DNA of 41,205 nt, taken from contig CAMDJH010000018.1 of the NCBI GenBank assembly GCA_945900455.1, forward strand, positions 1 to 41,205. Direction: 5' to 3'. Numbering within the stretch: position 1 is the stretch's first letter; each line of letters opens with the position of its first letter. The notes below the pieces were generated by a model. The model worked only from the letters and a program-made list of their open reading frames with translations. It was not told where the DNA came from and did not search any database. This document shows positions 5,766 to 32,799 of the stretch, piece after piece. The position numbers and the translations under genes were made by a program. The DNA is from Akkermansia muciniphila. Its GTDB lineage: Bacteria; Verrucomicrobiota; Verrucomicrobiia; Limisphaerales; UBA9464.

Positions 5766-6341
5766 ATGAATTCAGGTGGATTTATCCGAATCTTTCTCCG
5801 GCCCGTCGCCCGGAGTGTCGCAATTGTCTCCGCTGGCGCCTGCCTCGGCTTGTTTTCGAGAGTGCCAGCCCGTGCTGCCGAATCCTCCGTGAATGCCAAG
5901 ATAGCCCCCAGCAAGGACGCATCCGGCGCAGAGTTCACGGTCGTCGGGTTCGACAAGTTATCCGCATTCAAGTACGAGGTTCCGGACGAAACCAAACCAA
6001 ATCCCGATACCGATAAGGGAGACAGCCAGATTCCGCAGTCGGTCAAGGACTTCAATGGCAAGCGGATCGCACTCAAGGGGTTCATGCTTCCACTCAAAGT
6101 GGAGGGAGGTTTGGTGACGGAACTCCTGATCATGCGGGACCAATCCATGTGCTGCTTTGGAGCCGTTCCAAAGATCAATGAATGGGTGAGTGTCAAAATG
6201 ACGGGGAAGGGCGTAAAACCGGTCATGGATCAGGCCATTACGCTGGTTGGAAAACTGAAAGTCGGAGGAATTAAAGAAAATGGATACCTAGTCGGAATTT
6301 ATGCCATGGACGGTGAGCGCTTGGAAACCCCCGGTAGCTAA
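5766..6341 (+). CDS. DUF3299 domain-containing exported protein
   Basis: 191 aa with N-terminal signal peptide; [45 protein letters not shown] typical of DUF3299; start chosen within the longer ORF 4881-6341. Confidence 0.8.
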
Positions 6342-6462
6342 CGCAACTTCCCGATCCCGGGCTCAACCCGTGGATTAAGTGTCAGGGCGCGGCTTCCCAC
6401 CACGCCTCCCCCTGAACGTCGGCTCCTGTGCGCGGGTTCCTTCCGACCGTGCGAACCCACCC

Positions 6463-7575
6463 ATGATCCAGTTCCGCAATCTCGCCCTCCGGTCAAATCT
6501 CTTCCTGTCCCCGCTGGCCGGCTACACGAACCTGCCGTTTCGGTTGGTCGTCCGGGAGATCGGCGGGCTCGATCTCGCCACCACAGACCTCGTTAACGCT
6601 CGATCACTCCTCGAAAAAAATCCCAAAGCACTCAAACTGATCGAATCCAACGCCCAGGACCAGCCCCTCGCCGTGCAATTGTTCGGATCGGTCCCGGAAG
6701 AAATGCGGGCCGCCTCCCAATACCTGGAGTCAATTGGCGTTGCGTCCATCGACATCAATATGGGCTGCCCCGTTCGCAAAGTCTGCCGAGTCGGCGGTGG
6801 CTCGGCCATGATGACCGAACTTGATCGCACGGCCGCACTCGTCCGCGGAATGGTGGCGGCAGTCCGGATCCCCGTGACCGCAAAAATGCGGCTCGGTTGG
6901 GATGACGACAATCTGACGGCACCGGATCTTGCCCGGGCACTGGAGGACGCCGGCGTTGCGGCTGTTTTCGTTCACGGCCGAACGCGCGAGCAGGGATTCA
7001 CTGGAACCGTAAATTTAAACGGAATCCGAAGAGTGGTTGAGGCCGTAAGTCGAATTCCGGTCATTGGAAATGGCGATGTTACGACGCCGGAAGCCGCGCG
7101 ACACATGCTGATCGAAACCGGTTGTGCGGGCGTAAGCATTGGCAGGGGTGCCTTCTACGATCCCTGGATTTTTCGCCGGACAAACGAATACCTCGCAACA
7201 GGAACGATGCCCGCGGAGCCGACCCTCACCGACCGCCTCCGGATTATGAGCCGCCATCTGGATCGAATGACGGAGGTTTTCGGAGAGGCACACGGTTGCA
7301 TCCTGTTTCGCAAGATCGCACCCTGGTATGCCCGTCGATTCGGCCCCTCGGCCGGATTCAATCAGCGGGTAGTTCGCCTGACATCCCGCGCCGAATACGA
7401 CGACATCGTGACAGACTATCTCCAATGGCGGGCCCAATTCTGCGACGCTGCAGGGCGACTCCTGCCGCGTTTTGAACCTCCACCAATGGTCGCCTCCTTC
7501 CTGCGTGACCGGGAACCCCCATCGGGTCTCCGGGAATCCATCCCGGTACCGAAAGGGCCGGTGGATGTTTGGTGA
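6463..7575 (+). CDS. dus: tRNA-dihydrouridine synthase
   Basis: LSPLAGYTNLPFRLVVREIGG, DINMGCPVRKVCRVGGGSAMM, VTAKMRLGWDD, VFVHGRTREQGFTG, PVIGNGDV: all conserved Dus motifs. Confidence 0.93.
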   Translation: MIQFRNLALRSNLFLSPLAGYTNLPFRLVVREIGGLDLATTDLVNARSLLEKNPKALKLIESNAQDQPLAVQLFGSVPEEMRAASQYLESIGVASIDINMGCPVRKVCRVGGGSAMMTELDRTAALVRGMVAAVRIPVTAKMRLGWDDDNLTAPDLARALEDAGVAAVFVHGRTREQGFTGTVNLNGIRRVVEAVSRIPVIGNGDVTTPEAARHMLIETGCAGVSIGRGAFYDPWIFRRTNEYLATGTMPAEPTLTDRLRIMSRHLDRMTEVFGEAHGCILFRKIAPWYARRFGPSAGFNQRVVRLTSRAEYDDIVTDYLQWRAQFCDAAGRLLPRFEPPPMVASFLRDREPPSGLRESIPVPKGPVDVW

Positions 7576-8166: not shown

Positions 8167-8329
8167 AGTCAAATGGTGCCCGCCTGTTTAGCCGGTTTGG
8201 ATAGGGTGAGTCAAACTTCGAATGGTGGAATTGTCGAGCAGCGGCCGCGACAGCCATTCCGCACTACCCGCATTGACTGAATCGGACGATCCATCGAAGT
8301 TTGCTCCCCGAGATCATCCGTCGTCCGTT

Positions 8330-9490
8330 TTACCCACGGCCGACGATCATCTGGCGAAACTCATCAAACAAGAAAGTCGAATCGTGAGGCCCAGGCGACG
8401 CTTCCGGATGGTATTGAACACAAAAGATGGGCTTTTTCTTGTGCCGCAATCCCTCGACGGTCCGGTCGTTTAAGTTGATCCGATTCACGCTGACGTCCGA
8501 CGGGAGTGAGTCGGCATCGACCGCAAAACCATGGTTTTGAGAGGTAATCTCGACCCGCCCAGTCTCAAAGTCCTTTACGGGCTGGTTCGCTCCCCGGTGT
8601 CCAAACTTTAGCTTAAACGTGGTTCCTCCAAACGCCTGGCCGAGGACTTGATGCCCCAGACAAATCCCGAAAATGGGAATGCCGCTTTGAACCAACTCCT
8701 GAACGGTCCGCACCGCATAGTGAAGGGCGGAAGGGTCGCCCGGGCCGTTGGAAAGAAAAATTCCCGCCGGTTTATAATTGAGTGCTTCCGCCGCGGAAGT
8801 GGCAGCCGGGACCACCTGAGTTCGAAATCCGCGCTGCCGCAAACAGCGGAGGATGTTGTACTTCATCCCGAAGTCGAAGGCGACAATCGGAATATCAGCG
8901 ACAGGCAACGGCTTCCGGTAGTCTCTCGGGTTTTGCGCAGAGAACCCCTTGTTGAGATCGAACGCGGCACTCTGCTCATCGTTGGGATCCCAGACAAACG
9001 GTTCCGGATGGGTTACCTCGTTCGCGTAGTCCACCCCCACAAGGCCCGGCCATTCCCTCGCCCGAAACACCGCCTCCGCATCGGACATCTCTTCGGTGGA
9101 TAGGACCCCCTTCAAAGCCCCTCGCACTCGCAGCTTCTTTGTGAGAGCCCGCGTATCCACTCCCTGAATACCGGGAATTCCATTGTCGCTGAGGTACGCC
9201 TCCAGGGACTGGTCTGATCGCCAGTTGCTGACCATCGGTGACAATTCACGAATGACGAATCCAGAAACATGTGGCCGCCAGGACTCCACGTCCACCCGGT
9301 TGACGCCATAGTTGCCGATCAGGGGATACGTCATCGTGACAATCTGCCCCTTGTAGGATGGGTCCGTGAGAATCTCCTGATAGCCCGTCATCGACGTGTT
9401 AAAACACACCTCTCCCACCGTCGTGGCCTTTGCACCAAAAGCCTGACCGTGAAACACAGAACCATCTTCTAAGGCGAGAATTGCATTCAT
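8330..9490 (-). CDS. carA: Carbamoyl-phosphate synthase small subunit
   Basis: LEDGSVFHGQAFGA...GEVCFNTSMTGYQEILTDPSY; GATase class I triad context GIFLSNGPGDPSA, IFGICLGHQVLG, YHPEASPGPHD. Confidence 0.97.
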   Translation of the reverse strand: MNAILALEDGSVFHGQAFGAKATTVGEVCFNTSMTGYQEILTDPSYKGQIVTMTYPLIGNYGVNRVDVESWRPHVSGFVIRELSPMVSNWRSDQSLEAYLSDNGIPGIQGVDTRALTKKLRVRGALKGVLSTEEMSDAEAVFRAREWPGLVGVDYANEVTHPEPFVWDPNDEQSAAFDLNKGFSAQNPRDYRKPLPVADIPIVAFDFGMKYNILRCLRQRGFRTQVVPAATSAAEALNYKPAGIFLSNGPGDPSALHYAVRTVQELVQSGIPIFGICLGHQVLGQAFGGTTFKLKFGHRGANQPVKDFETGRVEITSQNHGFAVDADSLPSDVSVNRINLNDRTVEGLRHKKKPIFCVQYHPEASPGPHDSTFLFDEFRQMIVGRG

Positions 9491-9652
9491 TGCGGACTAC
9501 TGCAAAGCGTCCCCGGATCCGAGGACCGTAAAGAAGAGCCGAGGGTAGGCTTAGCAATTCCACGGTCAACGCCGATGTTGAGCTCTCGCTCAGAGCGGAT
9601 TGACCCGCAGTTTTTGCGTGCGCGAAGGTTTCGGCCATCGTACGTTCGCCGG

Positions 9653-11029
9653 ATGTTCGTTTGGCTTCTTGCTGCCCTAATTGTGGGCGTCTTCGCCGTC
9701 CTTGGTTTTGGTACGGGAGCGATCCGTGCCGGAATCTCAATGGTAGGTGCCTTTATTGCACTCGCTTTGGCCGGACCACTCGGAAAACTGGCCGCGCCTC
9801 TCTTTTCTAAGATGGGTACTGAACACCCGCTTTGGCTCCTGGTGCTCCCGCCGCTGGTTGTGTTCGGGTTAGTCTGGCTCATTTTCTTCGGCCTCGGATT
9901 TGCCGCCCATCACCCCGTGGAATTGCACTTCAAGTACAAAGAGGACGACCAGACTCGCAAGGGGTTCGAATCCATGAACAAGGCACTCGGACTCTTTCTC
10001 GGCTTGATGACGGGTACGGTCCTCTTCCTTTCGGTCGGCCGCCTGATCTATTCAGGGGGATATCTGACCACACAAACTTCATCCGAAAATGAACCGGGTA
10101 TTCTGGGATATGTTAACAAGATCCGCCAGGATATGAGCGGTAGCGGTTGGGACAGAACATTTGCCGCCCTCGATCGTACATCGCCAAGTTTCCTTAAAAT
10201 CTCCGATATCCTCGGCCTTCTCTATCACAATCCCCTCGTTCACGGGCGCGCGTCCGGCTATCCCCCGTTCCTCCGGCTGGGCGAACGGCAGGAGTTTAAG
10301 GATATCGGTGCGGATCTGGACCTGCTTAAGGAACTGACTCAGGGCGGGAGCTTCATGGCGATTTCCGGCAACCCGAAAGTTCAGGCCCTGCTCAAGAACG
10401 AAGAACTCACGAAGGAACTCCTCGTTACCGATCTTGATGACTTCCGAAAATACATCGAAACCGGTAAATCTCCAAAATTCGATGACGAACGCATTCTGGG
10501 CCGATGGCGCCTCGATCCCGTGGCGACATTGAACGCGGCAAAGCGCAGCCGACAAACAATGACCGCCACCGAAATACTCATGCTGCGGAATCTCCTGACG
10601 AACGCGCTTGCCTCCACTACGTTGACGGCATACATCGATGGCAAGCTGGTGGTAGCCGCTCCGGCACTTACCGCTCCAGTCACGCCCGCGGCCGATGCAG
10701 CTGCGGAGACAACCGGCGGACCTGCGGCCGGTGGCATCGACCCCACACTCGCCCAGCGTTACGGGCTTCGTCCCGGAGCCCGCGGCCCCGGCCTCGGAGC
10801 TCAGCCCAAGCCTCCCGTTGAAAAACCCGCACTCGTCGCCGTCAACCCGTTCGCAAAACTCCAACTGTCTTACGAGGGAACATGGAAGCGGAATGCCGAA
10901 GTCTATGAACTGACTTCGACAACCGGCGGGAAAGAGCAGACCGTGAATGCGACGATTAATGACGTCGGTCGCCTCGTCGTGCCAGTCGATGCAGTGAAAA
11001 TCTCGCTGGTTTTTGTGCGAGCCCTTTGA
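9653..11029 (+). CDS. CvpA family membrane protein with long C-terminal extension
   Basis: Several N-terminal TM helices FVWLLAALIVGVFAVLGFGTGAIRAGISMVGAFIALALAGPLG (CvpA-like), then a soluble and Ala/Pro-rich region. Confidence 0.65.
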   Translation: MFVWLLAALIVGVFAVLGFGTGAIRAGISMVGAFIALALAGPLGKLAAPLFSKMGTEHPLWLLVLPPLVVFGLVWLIFFGLGFAAHHPVELHFKYKEDDQTRKGFESMNKALGLFLGLMTGTVLFLSVGRLIYSGGYLTTQTSSENEPGILGYVNKIRQDMSGSGWDRTFAALDRTSPSFLKISDILGLLYHNPLVHGRASGYPPFLRLGERQEFKDIGADLDLLKELTQGGSFMAISGNPKVQALLKNEELTKELLVTDLDDFRKYIETGKSPKFDDERILGRWRLDPVATLNAAKRSRQTMTATEILMLRNLLTNALASTTLTAYIDGKLVVAAPALTAPVTPAADAAAETTGGPAAGGIDPTLAQRYGLRPGARGPGLGAQPKPPVEKPALVAVNPFAKLQLSYEGTWKRNAEVYELTSTTGGKEQTVNATINDVGRLVVPVDAVKISLVFVRAL

Positions 11030-11070
11030 AGCTCCGAGCACTGAGCCTCGCCTCTTAGAATGACCCGCAC

Positions 11071-11661
11071 TCAGCGGGGAACGATCATACGGTAGGTCGG
11101 GATGGAAACCGGCTCGGCATTCAAAGCACGATTCCCTCCTAGTTTGAACAGAGCCCGGGCCTCCTCCCGATCTCTTTCCGCATTGACAGCGTCCCCTGAA
11201 ATCGACTCGACGGCAGCCGGCGCACTCGCGGTGGAACTAATACCAGACGAGCTCACCGAAGGGCTCATCGAAGGCGAAAAGGCAATATTCGGAGGAAGAT
11301 CACCCGGTACCGTGCCGATACCTGCCACCAAGGGAGTCCTCGAAGGGATCTGCCCCACTCCGGCAATCACGGGTGGCTCAACGTCACCCGACAGGACAAG
11401 ATACAGGCTTACTCCCACGAATGTGAGCCCGCAGAGGGTGAGCAGATTGGCACCCGCCAGAATTCGAGCGGTACTCAACCCAAGCGATCGACGCCACCAC
11501 GGCATTTCCTCCCGTGCCAACTCCTCAGCTTCGATCCGACAAATCACTCTGGACGCGAAGTTATTGAAAAAACCAGGCGGTGGAACCTCTCGCCGCTTAA
11601 GGACCAACAACCGCCGCAACCCGTCAAAACCACCTGCTAATTCGTTGTTTTCAGAAGGCAT
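11071..11661 (-). CDS. Small single-TM protein downstream of an ECF sigma factor (possible anti-sigma-like)
   Basis: MPSENNELAGGFDGLRRLLVLKRREVPPPGFFNNFASRVICRIEAEE..., one TM helix (LAGANLLTLCGLTFVGVSLYLVL); sits directly after the sigma gene. Confidence 0.6.
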   Translation of the reverse strand: MPSENNELAGGFDGLRRLLVLKRREVPPPGFFNNFASRVICRIEAEELAREEMPWWRRSLGLSTARILAGANLLTLCGLTFVGVSLYLVLSGDVEPPVIAGVGQIPSRTPLVAGIGTVPGDLPPNIAFSPSMSPSVSSSGISSTASAPAAVESISGDAVNAERDREEARALFKLGGNRALNAEPVSIPTYRMIVPR

Positions 11662-11723
11662 AATACTTTGTGAATCCATCCCATACCAGCACACCGCACC
11701 GCACCGCAGCAGGCACCCCCACC

Positions 11724-12392
11724 TCATCGGACCCAGTCCGCCAGCCACGCCTGCAACTGCTGCCGGGCATAGTGCAACCGTGACCGAACAGTCCCCGGAT
11801 TGCAGTTCATCACCGCCGCGATTTCGTCGTGCGGCATCCCTTGAATGTCATGCAGTGTGACCACCATCCGATGCTCCTCAGACAATTTCTGGATGGCCTC
11901 GTTCAAACGGGTCTGAAGCTCCAAGAGACTCACTTCCCGTCGCGGAGTGTTCTGCGACACCAGCGCGATCAAATCAGGATCGTTCTCCCCTCCAAAATCG
12001 AGGTCGTTGAGGCTAAAGTGAGGGGTGCGATTGCGTCGCTGCTTGAGGAAATTAATCGTTCGATTGACCGCAATCCGGTAAACCCACGTATAAAAACTTG
12101 AGTCGCCCTTGAACGACTTCAGAGCCTGCCAGGCTTTGACAAACGACTCCTGCGCCAAGTCGCTGGCATCCTCATGATGACCCGTCATGTGGTAAACCGT
12201 CGCATAGATCCGCTCCTGGTACTTACGAACCAAATCGTCGTATGCCGAGAGCTCTCCAGCCTGCGCTTTACGAACCAGTTCACGGTCAACCTCACCATCA
12301 TCGCTGGCAACGCTAACACCGCCAGCAACGGGCTCGATTCGAACCGGAAGAACGCTGGCGGCGGTTATGTCCATGGACAGGGCTGCAACCAT
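11724..12392 (-). CDS. RNA polymerase sigma factor, ECF family (SigW/RpoE type)
   Basis: YDDLVRKYQERIYATVYHMTGHHEDASDLAQESFVKAWQALKSFKGDSSFYTWVYRIAVNRTINFLKQRR (sigma region 2) and HDIQGMPHDEIAAVMNCNPGTVRSRLHYARQQL (region 4). Confidence 0.95.
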   Translation of the reverse strand: MVAALSMDITAASVLPVRIEPVAGGVSVASDDGEVDRELVRKAQAGELSAYDDLVRKYQERIYATVYHMTGHHEDASDLAQESFVKAWQALKSFKGDSSFYTWVYRIAVNRTINFLKQRRNRTPHFSLNDLDFGGENDPDLIALVSQNTPRREVSLLELQTRLNEAIQKLSEEHRMVVTLHDIQGMPHDEIAAVMNCNPGTVRSRLHYARQQLQAWLADWVR

Positions 12393-12398
12393 GACCAG

Positions 12399-13442
12399 TT
12401 AGACACCTAAACTGGAAATTCGTTGCGACAAAAACTCCGAAAAATGCTTCAACGCCGACCGACTGGGGGTCGGCCGCAACCCCTCGACGGCCGCTACCGC
12501 CTCGCAGAGAAATCCTCGAATCACCTCAGCCGAACCCACTAACACCCCCGCTCGTTCCAATCGCTCTCGAACCCCGGCAAGCAGCTCTGGGTGCCAATCC
12601 TCCAGCCACCCCATCAACTCCGCCCGTTCCTCCAAACCGGCGTTCTCCAGGTAAATCAATACCGGCAACGTCGGCTTCCCATTCGCTAGATCCGTACCCA
12701 GTGATTTTCCCGCCTCCCCTTCCGCACCGAACACATCAAGACAGTCGTCGTAGATCTGATAGGCCGTCCCCAAAGCCAATCCATACCGGCGTAGCGCCTG
12801 CTGCTCCTCAATCGTCCCCCCCCCCAGCTTCGCCCCCAGTTCACACGCAAGGGCGAACAGCTCGGCCGTCTTCATCGCAAGCACTTTGAAATACTCGGCG
12901 CGAGTTAAGTTCCAACGACGCCGTCGGTGTGTCTGAAGAATCTCGCCCCCACAGACAATGCCGGTGGCATCCGCCACCGCGCGGCAGACTTCCGTCGTTG
13001 AAAAACCTGCCGCGAGCTTGAGCGCATGGGCGAAAAGACAGTCGCCCAGCAGTACCGACACCTCATTGCCCCACCGCGCCGCAAGAGTCGACCGACGACG
13101 ACGCAACGATGCGCCGTCCATGACGTCGTCATGAACCAGGGTTGCGAGGTGGATCATCTCAATGATGACCGCCACGGTGACAAGCTCCTCGGTCACCGCC
13201 CCAACCGCCCCGCTTGCGAGGGCAATCAACGCCGGCCTCAACTGCTTGCCTCGATTGTCGAGGGCGTAGCGGGCGTACTCCACAATCTCGGGCTCAAATG
13301 CCTCGACCTGCGCCACAAGCTGATAGGATACGCGGTCGAGGAAGGGCCGGACGGGATCGACGATTTGCCCCCAGACAGCTGCTTCGTGCACACGGTCACC
13401 CGCGCGCAAAAGGGTTGAAATTGGGACAACTACAGCCGGCAT
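12399..13442 (-). CDS. Polyprenyl (octaprenyl/heptaprenyl-type) diphosphate synthase
   Basis: GKQLRPALIALASGAVG, first Asp-rich motif LVHDDVMDGASLRRRRSTLAARWGNEVSVLLGDCLFAHAL, second motif YQIYDDCLDVFG. Confidence 0.95.
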   Translation of the reverse strand: MPAVVVPISTLLRAGDRVHEAAVWGQIVDPVRPFLDRVSYQLVAQVEAFEPEIVEYARYALDNRGKQLRPALIALASGAVGAVTEELVTVAVIIEMIHLATLVHDDVMDGASLRRRRSTLAARWGNEVSVLLGDCLFAHALKLAAGFSTTEVCRAVADATGIVCGGEILQTHRRRRWNLTRAEYFKVLAMKTAELFALACELGAKLGGGTIEEQQALRRYGLALGTAYQIYDDCLDVFGAEGEAGKSLGTDLANGKPTLPVLIYLENAGLEERAELMGWLEDWHPELLAGVRERLERAGVLVGSAEVIRGFLCEAVAAVEGLRPTPSRSALKHFSEFLSQRISSLGV

Positions 13443-13674
13443 CGTGACGGAAAGTAGATTTCGATAGGGGCAGGGTCAACCTTCCGGGTGCCCTCCGGAT
13501 CGAGTTGTTGGTGCTCCCAGCCCTCCAACGACTTGATTTTAGGATTTATTAACATTTTTTAAAGCCATCGCGCTGTCCGGCAACCGAAGCGGCCGTTGAC
13601 TTTCTCTTTGACCGGGTGGCCGGCAGTTCACTACGGTGGGGCGTCGTTTCATTGACAACATTCAACAAACTAGC

Positions 13675-14121
13675 ATGAGCAATACTTACGTTCCTCTCAT
13701 CAGCTCCGGTACCGCCGGCCCGCTGGGTGTACTTCACCTGCCACGCATGTGGCTAAAGGTTTCCCTCGAAGCACGCGGTAAAATTGCCGCCGGGTACCCC
13801 GGCATCGGCAAGGGCTACGACTCCATGGTGTGCGCCGCCCTCAATATCAATCCCGACGCCGCGAAGAAATTCGTCGCCGACAGCAAACCAACGTATCCCC
13901 AATTCGAGGCGTGGATTCGCAAGCAGCCCGGTGTGAAACTCGACAAGGCCACCATTCACAAGCTGAACGTTTCAATCGCCGGATACATCCACGACGACGA
14001 CACCCGCAAAGGCATCCTCAGCGCGAACGGATTGCCCGAAGATGGTTCGGTTCTGCCGGACGCTATCAATCTGAACAACCTGGACGACTGGTACGAATTC
14101 CACCAGGCCGTCCTGAAATAA
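13675..14121 (+). CDS. DUF5069 domain-containing protein
   Basis: 148 aa; LPRMWLKVSLEARGKIAAGYPGIGKGYDSMVCAALNINPDAAKKFV typical of DUF5069. Confidence 0.75.
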   Translation: MSNTYVPLISSGTAGPLGVLHLPRMWLKVSLEARGKIAAGYPGIGKGYDSMVCAALNINPDAAKKFVADSKPTYPQFEAWIRKQPGVKLDKATIHKLNVSIAGYIHDDDTRKGILSANGLPEDGSVLPDAINLNNLDDWYEFHQAVLK

Positions 14122-14141
14122 CGTCCCCCAAGACTTCGACC

Positions 14142-14181
14142 GCACCGGCCCGGACTTCCTTCCGGGACGGTGCTTTTTTTT
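14142..14181 (+). terminator. Rho-independent terminator after the DUF5069 gene
   Basis: gcaccggcccggacttccttccgggacggtgcttttttttt: GC-rich stem GCACCG..CCGGA/TCCGG..CGGTGC followed by a T run. Confidence 0.88.
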
Positions 14182-14298
14182 GCACTAGAACAAACGCGAA
14201 CCGCGAGTAGGTCTTCCTGTGCAACAACCGAAAGCGTGCCGGTATACCGGCGCCGCTCCAGGCAAACCGCGTCAATTGTCGACAACCGTGGACGGTCA

Positions 14299-15228
14299 TT
14301 ATATTTTCCGCGGACGCCACCCTGCCATCCAGCGCTCTGAGGCATTTTTCAAAACCTCCGGCTCCCAGAACAACACATAGGTGGCGATGCACGTAAGGAA
14401 ACCGGTGATCCCGAGCGTCACCGCGATTCCGATATGAAAAAGTGCCCCCACGACACACGCGGCGAGGCGATATCTCCGGGTCCAGAGAAAAAATGGAAGG
14501 AATATTTCCATGATTATTACCATCCAGGAAGCGATCGTATAGACGCCAGTCGGGAGGGACAAATCACCAATCCAATACCCCACGGGAGTTGCCCAACGTC
14601 CGATCAGAGTCCATGGCAGCACCAAGCCGGCCCGCCAATCAGGCATCATCAACTTGAATAATCCCGTGCCAGAATATAGAAATGAAATGTGGATGGCTAT
14701 GAGTCGCGCGGAAAATTGCGATACCTTATGCCGGGTCGCGGCAGGGGGCCGCAGGCTGGAGGTGATTGACCAAACCCGATCCAAGTCAGAAAAGCACAGG
14801 AGAAATAGAAAGAAAACGTTCAGATTGTCGAACGCGGCGCCACCGGTGCGCAATTGGAGCAGCCAGTGATAGACATAGCCAGCCCAGATGAGCGGAGTGA
14901 TCACCCGTGTGAAGAGACCGAGAATAAACGGAATGTGGATCGCGAGAAAGACGGAATAGATTACTCTCGCGAGTCCTGGGCCTGGGGCCATATCCGGGAG
15001 TACCGTTGTATTATAAACCCCGATGGATGAGAACAGGGTGTCCGCGACTGGCCAGTAGCGTCCCCAGTACCAAAGCAAATAGAATCCAAAACAAATTCGG
15101 TATCCGGCCAGACTGTGTCCGGTCGCGAGCGGGAACCAGAACTGGTGCCAGCCTCGAAATGCCGCCCCCAGCCGTCCTGAAATCTGGCGGGGAACTCTGT
15201 CCGTTACTATCCGATGGGTGGAATTCAT
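14299..15228 (-). CDS. HTTM domain (gamma-carboxylase-like) membrane protein, module copy A
   Basis: WHQFWFPLATGHSLAGYRICFGFYLLWY...FSDLDRVWSIT...FLYSGTGLFKLMMPDWRAG...ALFHIGIAVTL; ATG overlaps the stop of the upstream gene (ATGA). Confidence 0.8.
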   Translation of the reverse strand: MNSTHRIVTDRVPRQISGRLGAAFRGWHQFWFPLATGHSLAGYRICFGFYLLWYWGRYWPVADTLFSSIGVYNTTVLPDMAPGPGLARVIYSVFLAIHIPFILGLFTRVITPLIWAGYVYHWLLQLRTGGAAFDNLNVFFLFLLCFSDLDRVWSITSSLRPPAATRHKVSQFSARLIAIHISFLYSGTGLFKLMMPDWRAGLVLPWTLIGRWATPVGYWIGDLSLPTGVYTIASWMVIIMEIFLPFFLWTRRYRLAACVVGALFHIGIAVTLGITGFLTCIATYVLFWEPEVLKNASERWMAGWRPRKI

Positions 15229-15755
15229 TGAACATCCGTCAGAATAAGATATTGAACAACGGCGTCCGGGGAATTTGTGCCGACATGGAATCCCTCCGAA
15301 TTTGCCGGCCACGTCATATGCCGATAGGCTATCTGAGTGACCGGGGCATCCGGGTGGAGAAGGTTATGCCGGCGCCGAACTTTGTTTCCCAGTACCTGAT
15401 GAACATCCGCTTGGTTCTGGCCCGAGGAGTTCACGCCCCAAACTTCCGCCTTCATCATATTGTACTGAATCCCCCTCCAGAAAGGGAAGAACTCGTCCTC
15501 CGGAAGCCGTCGCCATTCGGAAACATTGGTACCGCCCCCCGGCGGCCGCCCCCAGAGGGTCAATTCCATGTTGTTGGAGGAATAATTCGAAAACAGCCCA
15601 AAACAAACGAGACTCCCCATCTCCCGCGGCAACATCGGCGGGGCCCCCGTCAGCGTGCTCCAAAGCTGGGTGGGAATGAGCAACAAATCGGACCCAACAA
15701 CCAGCAGGACAAGCAGCGACTGAAAGGCCAGTAGCCCGCGAAGCTTGAATCTCAT
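15225..15755 (-). CDS. Uncharacterised small protein with one N-terminal hydrophobic segment, partner of HTTM copy A
   Basis: MRFKLRGLLAFQSLLVLLVVGSDLLL...SNNMELTLWGRPPGGG...WRRLPEDEFFP...VRRRHNLLHPDAPV; paralogous to the protein at 22256-22804. Confidence 0.75.
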   Translation of the reverse strand: MRFKLRGLLAFQSLLVLLVVGSDLLLIPTQLWSTLTGAPPMLPREMGSLVCFGLFSNYSSNNMELTLWGRPPGGGTNVSEWRRLPEDEFFPFWRGIQYNMMKAEVWGVNSSGQNQADVHQVLGNKVRRRHNLLHPDAPVTQIAYRHMTWPANSEGFHVGTNSPDAVVQYLILTDVQ

Positions 15756-15899
15756 TGCGGAAAAGTACTGGTAAAATCGGATGCGAGGCAACGCCGAGCA
15801 TCCTCGCAGGACCCCCGTTCTGCCCCATCGCCGGATGAGGGCTTGCCTCAACTGCCGGATCGAATAGCGTTTTGGCCGATGTATTCTTCGCGCCAGTTC

Positions 15900-16289
15900 A
15901 TGAAACGATTTCTCCTTCCCGGCGTGGTCTTGGGGACCACTCTCTCCCTCAACGCCATCGCCGCGCCTACAAAGAAAGGCAAAGGCAAATTACGCCATGT
16001 GGTGGCCTTCAAGTTCAAGGATTCCGCCACCAGAGACGAAATCCGTAAGCTCGAAGACGCGTTTCGCGGTCTCAAGCTAAAGATTCCGCAAGTTGCCAAA
16101 CTGGAGGCAGGCGAAAACAATAGCCCGGAAGGCTTGAACAAGGGTTGTACTCACGCGTGGATCCTGACGTTCAACAGCGAAAAGGACCGGGATGACTACC
16201 TCGTGCACCCGGACCACAAGGAATTCGGCAAACTGGCCCGCTCCGTGGTTGCCGATGTCTTTGTGGTGGATTTTTGGGCGAGAGAATAA
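15900..16289 (+). CDS. Exported Dabb (stress-responsive alpha/beta barrel) family protein
   Basis: Signal peptide MKRFLLPGVVLGTTLSLNAIAA; LRHVVAFKFKDSATRDEIRKLEDAFRGLK...THAWILTFNSEKDRDDYLVHPDHKEFGKLARSVVADVFVVDF. Confidence 0.88.
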   Translation: MKRFLLPGVVLGTTLSLNAIAAPTKKGKGKLRHVVAFKFKDSATRDEIRKLEDAFRGLKLKIPQVAKLEAGENNSPEGLNKGCTHAWILTFNSEKDRDDYLVHPDHKEFGKLARSVVADVFVVDFWARE

Positions 16290-16373
16290 GTGCACAAAGC
16301 GTTGCAGCGCGCCGGAGGGGCGCTCGGGAACCGGGCGTGAATGCTCGCTCGGTCCATTCCGTTTCTTCTTCCC

Positions 16374-16886
16374 TCAGCGCCGAGCGTGCCCAGCCAGGGT
16401 CCCGAGCGCCACGACGAGGCGGTCGAGGAGCGGTTGTTGCGTCAACTTCAGGCGCTCCTTGGCTCCATTAAGGGAAAAGAACCCCGCCCGGTCCACTTCG
16501 GGAAATTCCTGCCAATTTCCAGAGCCCGGCGGCCACTCCAACGAAAAATGATTGCTCTTGGGCGGACCCGTTTCACTCCAGCACCCTTCAAAGGCCCAAG
16601 CATGAACCGTCTTTCCACCTTTTTGCAGGATCGAGCCCAATTCAATAAATGGGCCGCTGGGTCGGATCCCAACCTCTTCCTCGAACTCCCGAACCGCCGC
16701 CGCAAATGTCTCCTCGCCCGGTTCAATCTCGCCCTTGGGTATCGTCCACACGTCATAGTCCCGGTGGGGAAACCAAGGCCCGCCAGGGTGCGCGATGAAA
16801 ACCTCCAGTTCCACCCGGGACACCCGGTACATCAGCAAACCCGCGCTAACACGGGGACGTTTTGGACGATGTAGGCCGACGGGCAT
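16374..16886 (-). CDS. NUDIX hydrolase
   Basis: WTIPKGEIEPGEETFAAAVREFEEEVGI matches the Nudix box GX5EX7REUXEEXGU. Confidence 0.92.
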   Translation of the reverse strand: MPVGLHRPKRPRVSAGLLMYRVSRVELEVFIAHPGGPWFPHRDYDVWTIPKGEIEPGEETFAAAVREFEEEVGIRPSGPFIELGSILQKGGKTVHAWAFEGCWSETGPPKSNHFSLEWPPGSGNWQEFPEVDRAGFFSLNGAKERLKLTQQPLLDRLVVALGTLAGHARR

Positions 16887-26744: not shown

Positions 26745-26997
26745 CCGTCGATGCTCCGGGGAATCCAGCCCGCCGCCAGACAAAAGTGTCCTGACACTTT
26801 CCCCGACCTACCGGCCGCTCGCTCCTTCCTTTCATTGAGTCGAGCGAGACGCAGAGACCCAAGATTCCTCGTGGCAATGCCTGCCTTCGTTTCCTTCTGT
26901 CGTCAAAACACGTCCCATGGGATTGCGACCGGGCATCGATCCGGCCGGATTCAACGATCGGGTCGACAAACTCGAAGCGGAAGCGGCAACCGTGCCT

Positions 26998-27104
26998 CCC
27001 GAAGTTGTTGGAAAAGGTAGCGGACGCCGCGCGGCGGCCCTGGGTCCGCCCGCTGTACGCGGGCGGGGTTGTCGCAGCGCGACAACCCTACCAACAACTT
27101 CGGG
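26998..27104. repeat. Inverted-repeat element with nested hairpins (cloverleaf-like)
   Basis: Perfect terminal IR CCCGAAGTTGTTGG (26998-27011) / CCAACAACTTCGGG (27091-27104) enclosing gccgcgcggc, ccgcccgc-tgtac-gcgggcgg and ggttgtcg-cagcg-cgacaacc. Confidence 0.75.
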
Positions 27105-27178
27105 ATGCAACGAAGCGGTCATCGGGATTCAAAGACGAATTGCAACTGGGACGTGTTTCACGATACTGGCCCCTCATT

Positions 27179-27430
27179 ATGAGTGAATTGGAGCGTGCAC
27201 AGGTGGAAGCAAAGGTGCGAACCGTCATCGGTCAGACCTTCGGACTTTCGCCGGCCGAGGCGGCGGGTGAACTCCGCATGGGCAATCCCACGACCTGGGA
27301 TTCGATGGGCCACATGCAGTTGATCGTCGGCCTGGAGGAAGCCTGCAACTGGTCATGCCCGGGTCACCAGATCGCAGACCTCGTGGATGTCCCCACGATT
27401 GTTGACGCCATCTGCAACCCGTCCAACTGA
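27179..27430 (+). CDS. Acyl/aminoacyl carrier protein
   Basis: 83 aa; VEAKVRTVIGQTFGLSPAEA...TTWDSMGHMQLIVGLEEACN; DS(M)GH provides the phosphopantetheine serine. Confidence 0.85.
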   Translation: MSELERAQVEAKVRTVIGQTFGLSPAEAAGELRMGNPTTWDSMGHMQLIVGLEEACNWSCPGHQIADLVDVPTIVDAICNPSN

Positions 27431-27437
27431 TCACACC

Positions 27438-28637
27438 ATGGGTAATCCGGCTGAATTCCCGCACTCCGTGCCACTGGGGTTGATCATCCCCGCTGATTTG
27501 GTGGGCGACGTCGTCGGCAAGCTTCATTACGTCTCGGAACAACTCGCCGGATTCCGAATTTCGGATTCGAGGGACACGGTGCATTTCCGGCTAAAGCCCG
27601 GCCAGGAGTCTCAACGCGCGCTCGTAACCGATCGACTTCGCGAAGTCGCAACCAAGCTCTGCCGATCCTACCGGTCATGGGGTGACAAGGTGCTGGTCAG
27701 CCGCCCGCGGGAACACTTCGCGTACCACGAGGACCCACATCCGTCGCTCGAAAGGGAAGGGCAAATTTTTAGGTACGGCAATGGACGATACGGTTTGGGT
27801 CCCCACGTGGTCGCGCTGGTCGAAGCCTTCGACCGACGCTTCCTCAGGACCGTGGAATCATTCTCTCCGGAAGCGCATCAATTCCCCAGCATCATTGGTG
27901 GCGATGTCCTCAGCCGCTGCCGCTATATCAAATCGTTTCCGCACTCCCTTTCGCTTGTCCACCATCTGAGAGAAGACTTGGATGCGATCCAGGGATTCGC
28001 GGAACAGGCGGAGTGGGGGGGCGACCACCTGAACGTGAAGCCCAATAGCCTCGCCCAGCCCGAGACGTTGTTGTCCCCCACGGTGTGCTTTCACTGCTAT
28101 GCTTGGTTGGCCGACAGCAAGCAACCTCGTCCGAGAATCATTACCGCCCGCGGCAAGTGCTTCCGATTCGAATCAGGCAGCCTGCACGGCCTCGAACGGT
28201 TATGGGATTTTTCGATGCGGGAATTGATTTTTGTCGGACCGAAGGAGTTCGTGCTGGAGCAACGCCAGAAAGTGATCGATGCCTCCACCCAACTGCTCGA
28301 CCGCTGGAATCTGTCCTATGAAATCAAGACCGCCACGGACCCGTTTTTCATCGACGATTTTTCACAACAATCCTCCTTTCAGAGGGCTTTCGATCTTAAG
28401 TTTGAAGTGCGAGCAGCCCTTCCCTACAAGCCCGGCGGAAGCGTCGCCATCGGCTCCTTCAATATTCACCAGGACTTCTTTGGCCGAAGTTTTTCGATCG
28501 GAACAATCGATGGCCAACCCCTGCACACCGGTTGCGTTGGATTTGGCCTCGAACGTGTCGCGCTCGCCCTCATTGCCCAACACGGTCTGGATCCCGCCGG
28601 ATGGCCCCCGGGTGTCCGCGAGGACATCTCCCGATGA
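27438..28637 (+). CDS. Class II seryl-tRNA-synthetase-like amino acid:[carrier protein] ligase
   Basis: TVCFHCYAWLADS, IITARGKCFRFESGSLHGLERLWDFSMRELIFVG, TATDPFFIDDF, VAIGSFNIHQDFFGRSFSI, LHTGCVGFGLERVALALIAQHG: class II motifs 2 and 3 with Cys/Glu/Cys residues as in aa:CP ligases; no tRNA-binding arm. Confidence 0.85.
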   Translation: MGNPAEFPHSVPLGLIIPADLVGDVVGKLHYVSEQLAGFRISDSRDTVHFRLKPGQESQRALVTDRLREVATKLCRSYRSWGDKVLVSRPREHFAYHEDPHPSLEREGQIFRYGNGRYGLGPHVVALVEAFDRRFLRTVESFSPEAHQFPSIIGGDVLSRCRYIKSFPHSLSLVHHLREDLDAIQGFAEQAEWGGDHLNVKPNSLAQPETLLSPTVCFHCYAWLADSKQPRPRIITARGKCFRFESGSLHGLERLWDFSMRELIFVGPKEFVLEQRQKVIDASTQLLDRWNLSYEIKTATDPFFIDDFSQQSSFQRAFDLKFEVRAALPYKPGGSVAIGSFNIHQDFFGRSFSIGTIDGQPLHTGCVGFGLERVALALIAQHGLDPAGWPPGVREDISR

Positions 28638-28645
28638 ATTAGTGC

Positions 28646-29854
28646 ATGGAGCTACTCCCGGATACGCTCTGGCAAGCAGTCGGAGAGACACTTCGCCCCT
28701 GGTTGATAGGCCTCCATCTGTCGCTCGCCTGGACGCTGGTGATCGAGGTTTTCCCAGCAGTTCGCAGGCCGGCAGGCTTGCTGGGCCTTACCGTGGCGTC
28801 TCTTCCCATTTTTCTGTGGGTAGCCGGACCAACGTGGTTTGTCATCAACCTGCTCGCCTACGGAACCGCCTCATTCCTGGTTCATTCGGCCGGTACCGCG
28901 AGTCTCCGATGGAATCGCGCGTGCGTCCTCATGATTGGCACCGTCTTACTTTATACGCTAGCACACCGGATTTGGGAAGACGGCATACGCATACCGCTCG
29001 GTGGAAGGCGGTGGCACTGGAACAGTTTCGACATGTTCCTTCTCCTGCGCTGGGTGGTCCTGCTATGGGAATCAGGTTCCGGGAAGGTCCGTACGCTGGC
29101 ACCGGCGCGATTCCTAATCTGGACGGTGCTGCCCGTGACCTGTTTTGGGCCGTTTTTTCGCTACTCGCAGTTTCTTCTCCAGTGGGATCGATTGACCCGG
29201 CCAGGCGAAACCTGCGGCCCCAACGGAACCGCTTGGTGGCGGCAATTCCTGCCAGTGTGTTCGATGCTCGCCGGGCTTGTCTGCATCCACTACGCCGCCG
29301 GTCTGCTGCCACGCGGTTCTCATAACCGGGCGGCCTTCTTACTGAACACATTTCTATTCGGACCCTGGGGGTTCCTGCTTTCGGTCGGAGCCATCCTGCG
29401 AAGTCAGGAGATTCTCGGCCAACGGATGGGCCTGGTTTTGCCACCCAGTTTTGTCCGCCCCTTCGGCCGGACCAATCTCTCGGATTTTTGGGCGAACTGG
29501 AACATGTCGGTCACCGGCGTTTTTCGAGATCTGCTGTTCTACAATCGTTGGGGCCGAAAAAGCGCAAACCCTTACGTGAACAGCATCATATTGTTCACGC
29601 TTGTCGGGCTCTGGCACAATCCGAACGCGTATTGGATCCTCTGGGGATTTCTCCACGGATGCGCCTTCGCCGGGTTTCTCTGGTGGCGCAAATACCGCGA
29701 TCAAGTCTGCCCAATCGCCCTGCGTTCGCGAATCCCCAGGCGCGATCTGTGGTCGGCAACCCTGACCTACGCGGTCATCTGTTCGATGTGGGCTATCCCG
29801 TCCATATTCCTGAAATACCTCGTCCATGCCGGATCGACGGGGACCCCGCATTGA
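28646..29854 (+). CDS. MBOAT family membrane-bound O-acyltransferase
   Basis: Polytopic; FWANWNMSVTGVFRDLLFYNRWG...FTLVGLWHNPNAYWILWGFLHG, the conserved MBOAT core with both His. Confidence 0.88.
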   Translation: MELLPDTLWQAVGETLRPWLIGLHLSLAWTLVIEVFPAVRRPAGLLGLTVASLPIFLWVAGPTWFVINLLAYGTASFLVHSAGTASLRWNRACVLMIGTVLLYTLAHRIWEDGIRIPLGGRRWHWNSFDMFLLLRWVVLLWESGSGKVRTLAPARFLIWTVLPVTCFGPFFRYSQFLLQWDRLTRPGETCGPNGTAWWRQFLPVCSMLAGLVCIHYAAGLLPRGSHNRAAFLLNTFLFGPWGFLLSVGAILRSQEILGQRMGLVLPPSFVRPFGRTNLSDFWANWNMSVTGVFRDLLFYNRWGRKSANPYVNSIILFTLVGLWHNPNAYWILWGFLHGCAFAGFLWWRKYRDQVCPIALRSRIPRRDLWSATLTYAVICSMWAIPSIFLKYLVHAGSTGTPH

Positions 29855-29857
29855 CTG

Positions 29858-31813
29858 TTAGACTTGTCCGAGGCGCGCTGAAATCTGCTCCACGTCGTAG
29901 ACGCAACCTCCCCAAGTCCCGCCGCCGGCTTGCTGCAAGACAGCCCATAGGCGCGTGTCGTCGGGCAGTCCCGGGTGAGCCCGAAGTTCTGGATTGGCCG
30001 GACGCGCCGCAAGAATTCGCGCTCCCTCCTCCGAAGAAAACCGGCACTCTCCTTCGCCGATAAGGTCGACTGTCCCTTCAAGGCGATTTCGATCAATCAC
30101 AATTTGAATGCGATCTCCATCCCGGACCCGGCCAATCGGCCCACCCGCTAATGCCTCCGGGCCAACATGCCCAATGCAGGCCCCCGTTGAAACGCCGGAA
30201 AATCGTCCATCCGTGATCAGGGCCACGTGTTTGCCAAACGGCAGATGCTTGAGTGCGGACGTCACTTGGTAGGTCTCCTCCATCCCCGTCCCCATCGGTC
30301 CAAGGCCCATCAACACCATGATGTCTCCCGCGCGAACGTTGCCTGCCTTCAACGCCTCGATGGCCGTTCGTTCACTGTTGAACACCCGGGCCGGGCCTTC
30401 TCGCCGGAAAACACCATCCGCATCGACAACCGACGGATCAATCGCCGTGCTCTTGATGACCGCACCTTGTGGAGCGAGGTTACCCCGGGGAAAGGTCACG
30501 GTACTCGTCAAACCCCGCTCGCGTGCCGACGCCGGCGGCAATATGACGTCGTCCGGTTCAACCCCATCGTGTTCCCGCAATAAAGATCGGAATCGCCGGC
30601 GGCGCTCCGACTGAGACCAAAGATCGAGGACCGTGCCCAAGGTCTCGCCCGAGACCGTGCGCACCGTCAGGTCTAATAATCCCAAAGCCCGCAAATGCAG
30701 CATGACCTCCGGCACACCCCCGGCAAGGAACGCGCGCACCGTGGGATGATAGACCGGGCCATTCGGCAAGACACTGACCAGACGCGGCGTAGCCCGGTTC
30801 ACCGCGATCCAATCCTCCACCGTAGGGCGAGGAAGACCCGCCGCGTGGGCAATGGCCGGAATGTGCAGCAGAAGGTTTGTCGATCCTCCGAATGCGGCAT
30901 GCACTGTCATCGCATTCCGAATCGCCGCGGACGTGAGAATGTCGCGCATCCGATAACCAGCCGCCTCCATCGCCACGATCGCCGCGGCGGACTGCGTCGC
31001 CATCTCTAACCACACGGGCTGTCCGCTGGGAGCGAGGGCCGAATGCGGCAGACTAAGTCCCAGGGCTTCGGCAACGACTTGTGACGTTGCCGCTGTTCCC
31101 AAGAACTGGCATCCACCGCCCGGGCTTCCGCAAGCCCGACAGCCCAGGTCCGCTGCCTCGTCCAGAGTGACGAGCCCACGAGCATAACGAATCCCGAGCG
31201 TTTGTACTGTACCCGCATCTTCGCCGACCGTCGGAGGTAACGTCACTCCACCAAGCACCACGATTCCCGGTAAGTTCGGCAACCCAGCGAGCGCCATCAG
31301 CATTGCCGGAAGCCCCTTGTCACACGTCGCCACTCCAATCACTCCCGCCCGTGTCGGCAATGAACGCGCCAGGCGGCGGAATACGATCGCGGCATCGTTC
31401 CGGTAGGGCAGACTGTCGAACATCCCGGTGGTTCCCTGGGTCCGCCCGTCACACGGATCTGAAACAAATCCTGCAAACGGGATTCCTTTCAGCCGCCGGA
31501 TCTCGTTGGATGCTGCCTCCACCTGCAATCCAATCTCCCAATGCCCGGTGTGGTATCCCAAGGCGATGGGTTTTCCGTCCGGCGCTCGAACTCCACCCAA
31601 CGTGCTCAGAATCAAAAACTGCTTCCGACCCATCTCCTCCGGTGCCCACCCCATGCCCGCATTTTGTGTCCACCCAAACAGGTCTCCGCTCGGTTGCTCG
31701 CGCAACATCGCGTCCGTCAATGGCAACTTTCCCGCGGGACCCGGTCCGCGGGTCCTTAGTTCGTAGGAGGATTCTGCGGTTGCGAGCGGATGAAATGGCG
31801 CCGTGCTGGACAT
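29858..31813 (-). CDS. YjhG/YagF family D-xylonate dehydratase (IlvD/Edd superfamily)
   Basis: [117 protein letters not shown]; collinear with E. coli YjhG as remembered. Confidence 0.92.
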
Positions 31814-32046
31814 GGAGCAAGTAAAGACCAGAGCGGTCAAAAGCGGAATACTGGACCTCGAAAATTCGAATGCAGCCGATGCAATCGCTGCCATCGCCCT
31901 TGAATCGCACCGCCCGCACTCGCCGCGCAAAAGATTCCAATCGATTCCCGACAGCACGGTGAAGACGGCGAACAATCCCAATTCAATCGGAACAGTACTG
32001 CCTTGCTGAGATACCAAATCCCAGCGAACCTCGGCAGAAATATCCC

Positions 32047-32090: not shown

Positions 32091-32289
32091 TCGGTGTGGC
32101 CCCGACTTCCTTTCTTTCGAATCGGCGAGGGAGTTGGTACGGATCGAAAGAATCGGAGCCATGCCTTCGAGTGGCGACTGGAGGGAATGATCTCTTAATC
32201 TCAAACCTATTCGAGGCGGAAGGATTGGCTCCGTCCGGACTCACCGAAGCAATCCCACGCAAGTTTACCTATCACGAGGACATTACCCA

Positions 32290-32799
32290 ATGAATCCGAA
32301 CCTAACTGCAGGACATGTTCCTCCGGCAGACACGATCCAATTGCGGATTGCCGACGCCGCGAGCCTCGCCTCGGTTCAACCACTGTGGAACGCTCTCTAC
32401 ATGCACCAGACCGCTCACGGAATGGTCGTGTCCATTCCCGCCAACGGTTTCGCTCTTTGGCACGATGGACTCCGGCCCCTGCTCGGGCGTTTTGTGACCG
32501 TCTGGATTGCCGAGGCCGAAGGCCGGCCAGTCGGGTTTCTTTGCGGCCGAGAGCGGGTGCTTCCGGGGTACTTTGGCGGGGGGAGCGTCGGCTTTATAAG
32601 TGACGTCTTTGTCAGCGAGGCACACCGTGGTTGCGGTATAGGCCGCCGATTGATGGCGGCCGCCAAGGACTCCTATCGGGCGAAGAATATCAAACGACTG
32701 GAACTTCAAGTAGTCGCCGGTAATCCGGACGCCCGCCGTCTCTATCTAGAACTTGGCTGGCGAGATGAGCTGATACAGATGGTGCAGCAAATTGAATAA
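32290..32799 (+). CDS. GNAT family N-acetyltransferase
   Basis: GFISDVFVSEAHRGCGIGRRLMAAAKDSYRAKNIKRLELQVVAGNPDARRLYLELGWR: acetyl-CoA loop RGxGIGxxL and GNAT motif B. Confidence 0.92.
   Translation: MNPNLTAGHVPPADTIQLRIADAASLASVQPLWNALYMHQTAHGMVVSIPANGFALWHDGLRPLLGRFVTVWIAEAEGRPVGFLCGRERVLPGYFGGGSVGFISDVFVSEAHRGCGIGRRLMAAAKDSYRAKNIKRLELQVVAGNPDARRLYLELGWRDELIQMVQQIE

Follow-up and report, generated by a model that had tools for sequence, protein, structure and literature searches.

An operon of three genes in Akkermansia muciniphila probably encodes a Dlt-like system for aminoacyl transfer that uses an aaRS-type ligase in place of DltA, and in which carrier loading and N-acylation of an amino acid would be followed by MBOAT transfer to an envelope acceptor. 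The operon lies in a window of 41,205 nucleotides, which is the whole stretch of DNA analysed (contig CAMDJH010000018.1, forward strand). The features of the window that bear on this reading are as follows.

26995..27112, no strand assigned: high-copy palindromic repeat immediately upstream of the carrier gene, with 19-nt inverted arms and 71 genomic matches
27179..27430, plus strand: carrier protein, 83 aa, with a predicted phosphopantetheine site at Ser42 in TWDSMGHM (NCBIfam ACP, E 9e-4; WDS-GH kept in six loci)
27438..28637, plus strand: aaRS-type (atypical SerRS-like, class II) amino acid:carrier-protein ligase, 399 aa, called from NF005479, the Bll0957 structure, Zn ligands, and motifs 2 and 3
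28646..29854, plus strand: MBOAT acyltransferase of DltB length, 402 aa, called from TIGR04091 (E 1.6e-13), the DltB structure (E 1e-5), and residue comparison
29858..32017, minus strand: YjhG/YagF-family D-xylonate dehydratase gene between the MBOAT and GNAT genes (TIGR03432, 1133 bits)
32139..32246, plus strand: formyltransferase gene remnant, from the 3' end (76% identity to L021 15593-15703, E 1.6e-15; tblastn E 5.6e-9)
32290..32799, plus strand: GNAT N-acyltransferase (PF00583, E 7.6e-19), of a family that adjoins the ligase in other loci

The carrier, ligase, and MBOAT genes are tightly packed on the plus strand, exactly as the original prediction placed them, with gaps of 7 bp between carrier and ligase and 8 bp between ligase and MBOAT. 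Because their dN/dS values against the sister species are 0.22, 0.08, and 0.21, respectively, all three genes are maintained, and decay or relic status is ruled out. The D-xylonate dehydratase gene is not thought to be part of the system, nor is the palindromic repeat. The latter is about 118 bp long and falls outside the blocks that can be aligned with the sister species; about 40 of its matching stretches in the genome are long copies.

The ligase matches the amino acid--[ACP] ligase model NF005479 with 176.7 bits (E 5.6e-52) against a curated cut-off of 357, which places it by sequence as a relative of that family and not as the same equivalog. It also matches the solved carrier ligase Bll0957 (PDB 4h2w) with E 1.8e-33, as well as NCBIfam models of archaeal-type SerRS. 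The Zn ligands C217, E262, and C366, the motif 2 residues R243 and E245, and the motif 3 residues G370, E372, and R373 are all present and are invariant in seven aligned homologues. Archaeal-type SerRS and Bll0957 are the best solved matches of its predicted structure (pLDDT 73.8, pTM 0.69), and the archaeal-type SerRS match of this model spans about 400 columns. A SerRS-like catalytic domain without a tRNA-binding arm had been predicted; the catalytic domain stands, and the notion of a bare domain does not. The N-terminus carries about 90 residues beyond Bll0957 with a predicted beta-alpha-beta-beta-alpha-beta order and no Pfam match, an extension common to other long ligases. In the ligase tree, which resolves supported groups and leaves open the order between the first two of them, support is found for the operon's verrucomicrobial group, for the group of L023, L024, and L088, and for one clade comprising the ligases of L098, L099, L100, and L127. 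The precedent for the family is the loading of Gly or Ala onto a carrier protein (PMC5370406). A cognate carrier gene adjoins the ligase gene both in the operon and in its MBOAT-linked relatives.

That carrier is too divergent to match Pfam, and its NCBIfam ACP matches are weak. PF00550 does match its homologues, three of which exceed the curated cut-off (L023 with 24.1 bits, L024 with 21.7 bits, and L025 with 33.1 bits). The DS(M)GH phosphopantetheine site read in the original prediction forms part of a W-D-S-(M/I)-G-H motif that is conserved across the carriers of six aligned loci. The operon thereby includes a DltC-like carrier.

The product of the third gene is an MBOAT, as previously assigned, on the strength of its matches to the DltB model TIGR04091 (50.7 bits; cut-off 375) and to the solved DltB 6bug, despite having no match to Pfam MBOAT; a search of its own genome with PF03062 likewise missed it. 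It is homologous to DltB and of DltB length without being a DltB equivalog. TIGR04091 scores are 133-186 bits for the MBOATs of L098, L127, L130, and L100 and 51-58 bits for the operon MBOAT and that of L023, the two members of its clade scanned with this model. When compared with the active-site residues of DltB (PMC11035591), the operon MBOAT keeps the invariant His as His324 and has Asn286 at the position of DltB His289. Asn occupies this position in all six members of the operon's clade and in none of the ten other MBOATs compared. The genome itself encodes six MBOATs, and only that of the operon has this Asn and lacks the FXYXXF motif; its C-terminus reads YLVHAGSTGTPH, and the other five end in F(I/L)YFQF. 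An Asn-His pair is found in eukaryotic lipid and protein MBOATs as well. The predicted structure of the operon MBOAT is of low confidence (pLDDT 53.5) and too weak for placement of the active site; a fold search with this model ranks DltB and other MBOATs first, with E 1.7e-3 or worse.

The ligase and the MBOAT travel together. Among 58 near relatives, the ligase is found in three genomes (G000, G002, and G005), and full-length MBOATs of the operon's subfamily (664-729 bits) occur in exactly these three, with the next best match among the 58 genomes at 84 bits; two of the three are species of one genus and are not independent. The same gene set is present in three Acidobacteria genomes (L023, L024, and L088) in the order MBOAT-carrier-ligase-GNAT, and in L022 in the order carrier-ligase-GNAT-MBOAT. 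Profile searches for the ligase covered 257 genomes of one Acidobacteria order (24 with a match), 396 genomes of the phylum of G446 (11 matches), and 392 genomes of Planctomycetota, the phylum of G448 (6 matches). The matches were then examined by reading their neighborhoods; the survey included some incomplete MAGs and covered the larger groups by sampling. In eleven surveyed ligase loci from three phyla, an MBOAT gene lies beside the ligase gene or within about 1.5 kb of it, where the chance expectation is about 1% per locus given six MBOATs in 6.4 Mb.

Other ligase loci have different surroundings. In L025 (Phycisphaerae), carrier, ligase, and GNAT genes are followed directly by a gene for an AAC(3)-family acetyltransferase (8460-9365), with no MBOAT nearby. 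The long ligase of L094 has a PKS-like gene in place of a nearby MBOAT; inspection by eye of 8254-16727 places it beside a PKS-like ORF of 2433 aa and an acyl-CoA-dehydrogenase-like gene.

The GNAT gene is likely the fourth member of the system, split off in this genome by the inverted dehydratase gene. GNATs of its family are encoded directly beside the ligase in L022, L023, L024, L025, L088, and L125 and beside the carrier in L127, and a different type of GNAT recurs by the ligase in L098-L100. The sister species (G002) lacks the GNAT. At its place is an intact formyltransferase gene with PF00551 and PF02911 (L021 14851-15762), of which the window keeps the remnant in addition to the GNAT gene. 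A homologue of this formyltransferase is encoded next to the ligase of L090, and the closest solved relatives of the L021 enzyme are ArnA-type sugar N-formyltransferases. Because a formyltransferase occupies the place of the GNAT in the sister species, the carrier-bound amino acid is probably N-acylated. Given that GNAT or formyltransferase genes recur, the aminoacyl group that is transferred may be N-acylated instead of free.

Distant relatives of the operon carry Dlt-type parts. Five further acidobacterial and planctomycete ligase loci (L098, L127, L130, L099, and L100) pair with MBOATs of the DltB/AlgI type. In L098, the order is MBOAT, a microprotein of 51 aa that ends in FVYVHF and whose ATG overlaps the MBOAT stop, an SGNH protein (PF16822, AlgX), carrier, ligase, and the other type of GNAT. 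L127 encodes a GNAT of the operon's family and a carrier divergently from its ligase, followed by an SGNH-type protein, a microprotein of 57 aa ending in FIYEGF, and the MBOAT. In L130, a carrier, a short ligase, and an AurF-type oxygenase face an SGNH-type protein, a microprotein ending in FRYEGF, the MBOAT, and a second carrier; at 6261-7193 of this locus, the gene for this AurF-type N-oxygenase and a sulfotransferase-like gene lie beside the carrier and short ligase. In L099 and L100, the MBOAT itself has FVYFAF as its C-terminus, and its gene is accompanied by an SGNH-type gene and by carrier-ligase-GNAT genes. Only the SGNH protein of L098 scores above a Pfam cut-off; the other SGNH calls are weaker and rest on GxS and DxxH motifs read by eye, and additionally on mutual similarity for L099 and L100. 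In DltX and PatA, FXYXXF serves as the acyl-shuttle motif, and its Tyr bears the acyl group (PMC12148441).

Neither an FXYXXF peptide near the operon nor an SGNH gene adjacent to it was found in the window, L021-L024, or L088, and the earlier observation that no DltD-like gene adjoins the operon extends in this way to its clade. A DltX-like gene elsewhere in the genome was also considered and rejected. FXYXXF followed by a stop occurs seven times in the genome; five of these matches lie at the AlgI-type MBOATs, and no DltX-like ORF accompanies the remaining two. Only the positions of the matches are informative, because the reversed pattern matched more often (10 and 11).

In the mechanism these parts suggest, the ligase would adenylate a small amino acid (by analogy, glycine or alanine) and load it onto the phosphopantetheine arm of the carrier. 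The GNAT, or the formyltransferase in the sister species, would probably N-acylate its amino group. The DltB-like MBOAT would then accept the acyl group from the carrier, pass it across the membrane, and esterify a hydroxyl of an envelope acceptor. Because the operon's clade lacks SGNH proteins, the shuttle motif, and the second active-site His, its MBOAT may transfer the group directly or to another acceptor. A more specific form of this mechanism is tentative and falls somewhat short of an even chance: the ligase, carrier, and GNAT or formyltransferase would build an N-acetyl- or N-formyl-aminoacyl thioester, and a carrier-fed MBOAT branch marked by the Asn-His pair would transfer it directly to an envelope lipid or glycan, with no tyrosine shuttle or SGNH protein.

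The same parts admit other assignments. The view that an orphan carrier/ligase pair lies next to an MBOAT gene by chance draws on the presence of six MBOATs in the genome, but the exact co-occurrence of the two in near relatives and eleven MBOAT-linked ligase loci against about 1% expected at each make it so improbable that it is rejected. It is also very unlikely that the ligase is a SerRS paralogue that aminoacylates tRNA, with the MBOAT or GNAT using the aminoacyl-tRNA. The long match of its model to archaeal-type SerRS and its extra N-terminal domain would fit such an enzyme; however, its best sequence relatives are carrier ligases, and the MBOAT-linked loci have an adjacent carrier gene.

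A role in small-molecule or lipid synthesis is somewhat easier to entertain, although still unlikely. Here, the carrier, ligase, and GNAT would make an aminoacyl block, N-acylated or not, for a small molecule or lipid, which the MBOAT would esterify, and no envelope polymer would be modified. The absence from the operon's clade of SGNH and shuttle components, which typify polymer acylation, is consistent with this, as are the Asn-His pair shared with eukaryotic lipid and protein MBOATs and the PKS-like, AAC(3)-like, and AurF-type N-oxygenase genes beside ligase relatives in L094, L025, and L130, respectively. However, no biosynthetic gene cluster surrounds the operon among the genes examined, and MBOAT-linked relatives carry Dlt-type export parts. 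Another possibility, rather improbable though less so than a small-molecule role, is that the GNAT and formyltransferase act on amino sugars of envelope glycans and that the aminoacyl group passed by the MBOAT is free, as in Dlt. Only the N-acylation step is at issue here, and the other steps of the favored mechanism could stand alongside it. The ArnA-type relatives of the L021 formyltransferase point toward it, as does the L090 homologue, which by eye sits in a seemingly polysaccharide-type cluster. Yet the GNAT lies directly by the ligase in several phyla, and another type of GNAT does so in L098-L100, which fits action on the ligase product better.

A Dlt-like transfer of the carrier-bound aminoacyl group to the envelope remains the preferred reading, and it differs in part from what was first proposed. 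Weighing against it, the operon's clade has neither SGNH nor shuttle genes beside the operon, its MBOAT has Asn for the second active-site His, the long ligases of L025 and L094 are not near an MBOAT, the sister species lacks the GNAT, and confidence in the MBOAT model is low. The original prediction of a Dlt-like system with a different activating enzyme is upheld by the class II ligase, by its linkage to the MBOAT, which is conserved across phyla, and by the DltX-like and SGNH proteins of relatives. This support does not extend to polymer transfer by a Dlt relay in the operon's own clade, and the prediction missed the GNAT/formyltransferase component. The analogy with Dlt is stronger than could then be known, because in distant relatives the ligase and carrier genes are accompanied by genes for a DltX-like microprotein and an SGNH protein.

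To our knowledge, no role in the cell has been assigned to the aaRS-derived carrier ligases, although their structures have been solved and their chemistry is known. A search of open-licence papers found none that connects carrier ligases with MBOATs. The survey ties one lineage of these ligases to MBOAT-based envelope acylation in three phyla, where some gene sets include both a DltX-like shuttle peptide and an SGNH partner, and it thereby makes the cellular role of the ligase directly testable. If the reading is correct, Dlt-type aminoacylation occurs in phyla of the Gram-negative type and uses an activator taken over from translation. The recurring N-acyltransferase points to chemistry that is not known from Dlt.

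Compared with Bll0957 and the NF005479 carrier ligases, the operon's enzyme shares the fold, Zn ligands, motifs, and adjacent carrier gene, whereas it has about 90 more N-terminal residues, scores well under the family cut-off, and is linked to an MBOAT and a GNAT. Dlt and the operon would have in common an amino acid that is adenylated, loaded onto a small carrier, and passed to a DltB-like MBOAT, and distant relatives share in addition the DltX-like FXYXXF microprotein (L098, L127, and L130) and the SGNH protein (L098-L100, L127, and L130). Unlike Dlt, the operon has a class II aaRS-type activator in place of ANL-type DltA, and no ANL-type gene is among the annotated neighbors in the window. 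It also adds a GNAT or formyltransferase, has no DltX or DltD equivalent beside it in its clade, carries Asn at the His289 position, and belongs to a Gram-negative-type phylum. With DltA, DltX, and DltD absent from the operon and its MBOAT far under the DltB cut-off, the system appears to work like Dlt without membership in it.

The MBOAT-SGNH systems AlgI/AlgJ and PatA/PatB likewise use an MBOAT to pass an acyl group across the membrane, and L099 and L100 resemble them in having a C-terminal FXYXXF and an SGNH-type gene. MBOAT-SGNH pathways other than Dlt lack a carrier and evidently use acyl-CoA (PMC12148441); the operon MBOAT would instead be carrier-fed, which would mean that carrier-fed MBOATs are not confined to Dlt. 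The operon's clade further differs from these systems in having no C-terminal extension, motif, or SGNH partner.

In the AlmE-AlmF-AlmG system of Vibrio cholerae, glycine is loaded onto a carrier and attached to lipid A, with an ANL-type activator and a transferase that is not an MBOAT. The operon would share with Alm the delivery of a carrier-loaded amino acid to a Gram-negative envelope and differs from it in its aaRS-type activator and MBOAT. Direct transfer of an N-acyl aminoacyl group by the Asn-His branch, if true, would add a third route to envelope aminoacylation, next to Dlt and Alm.
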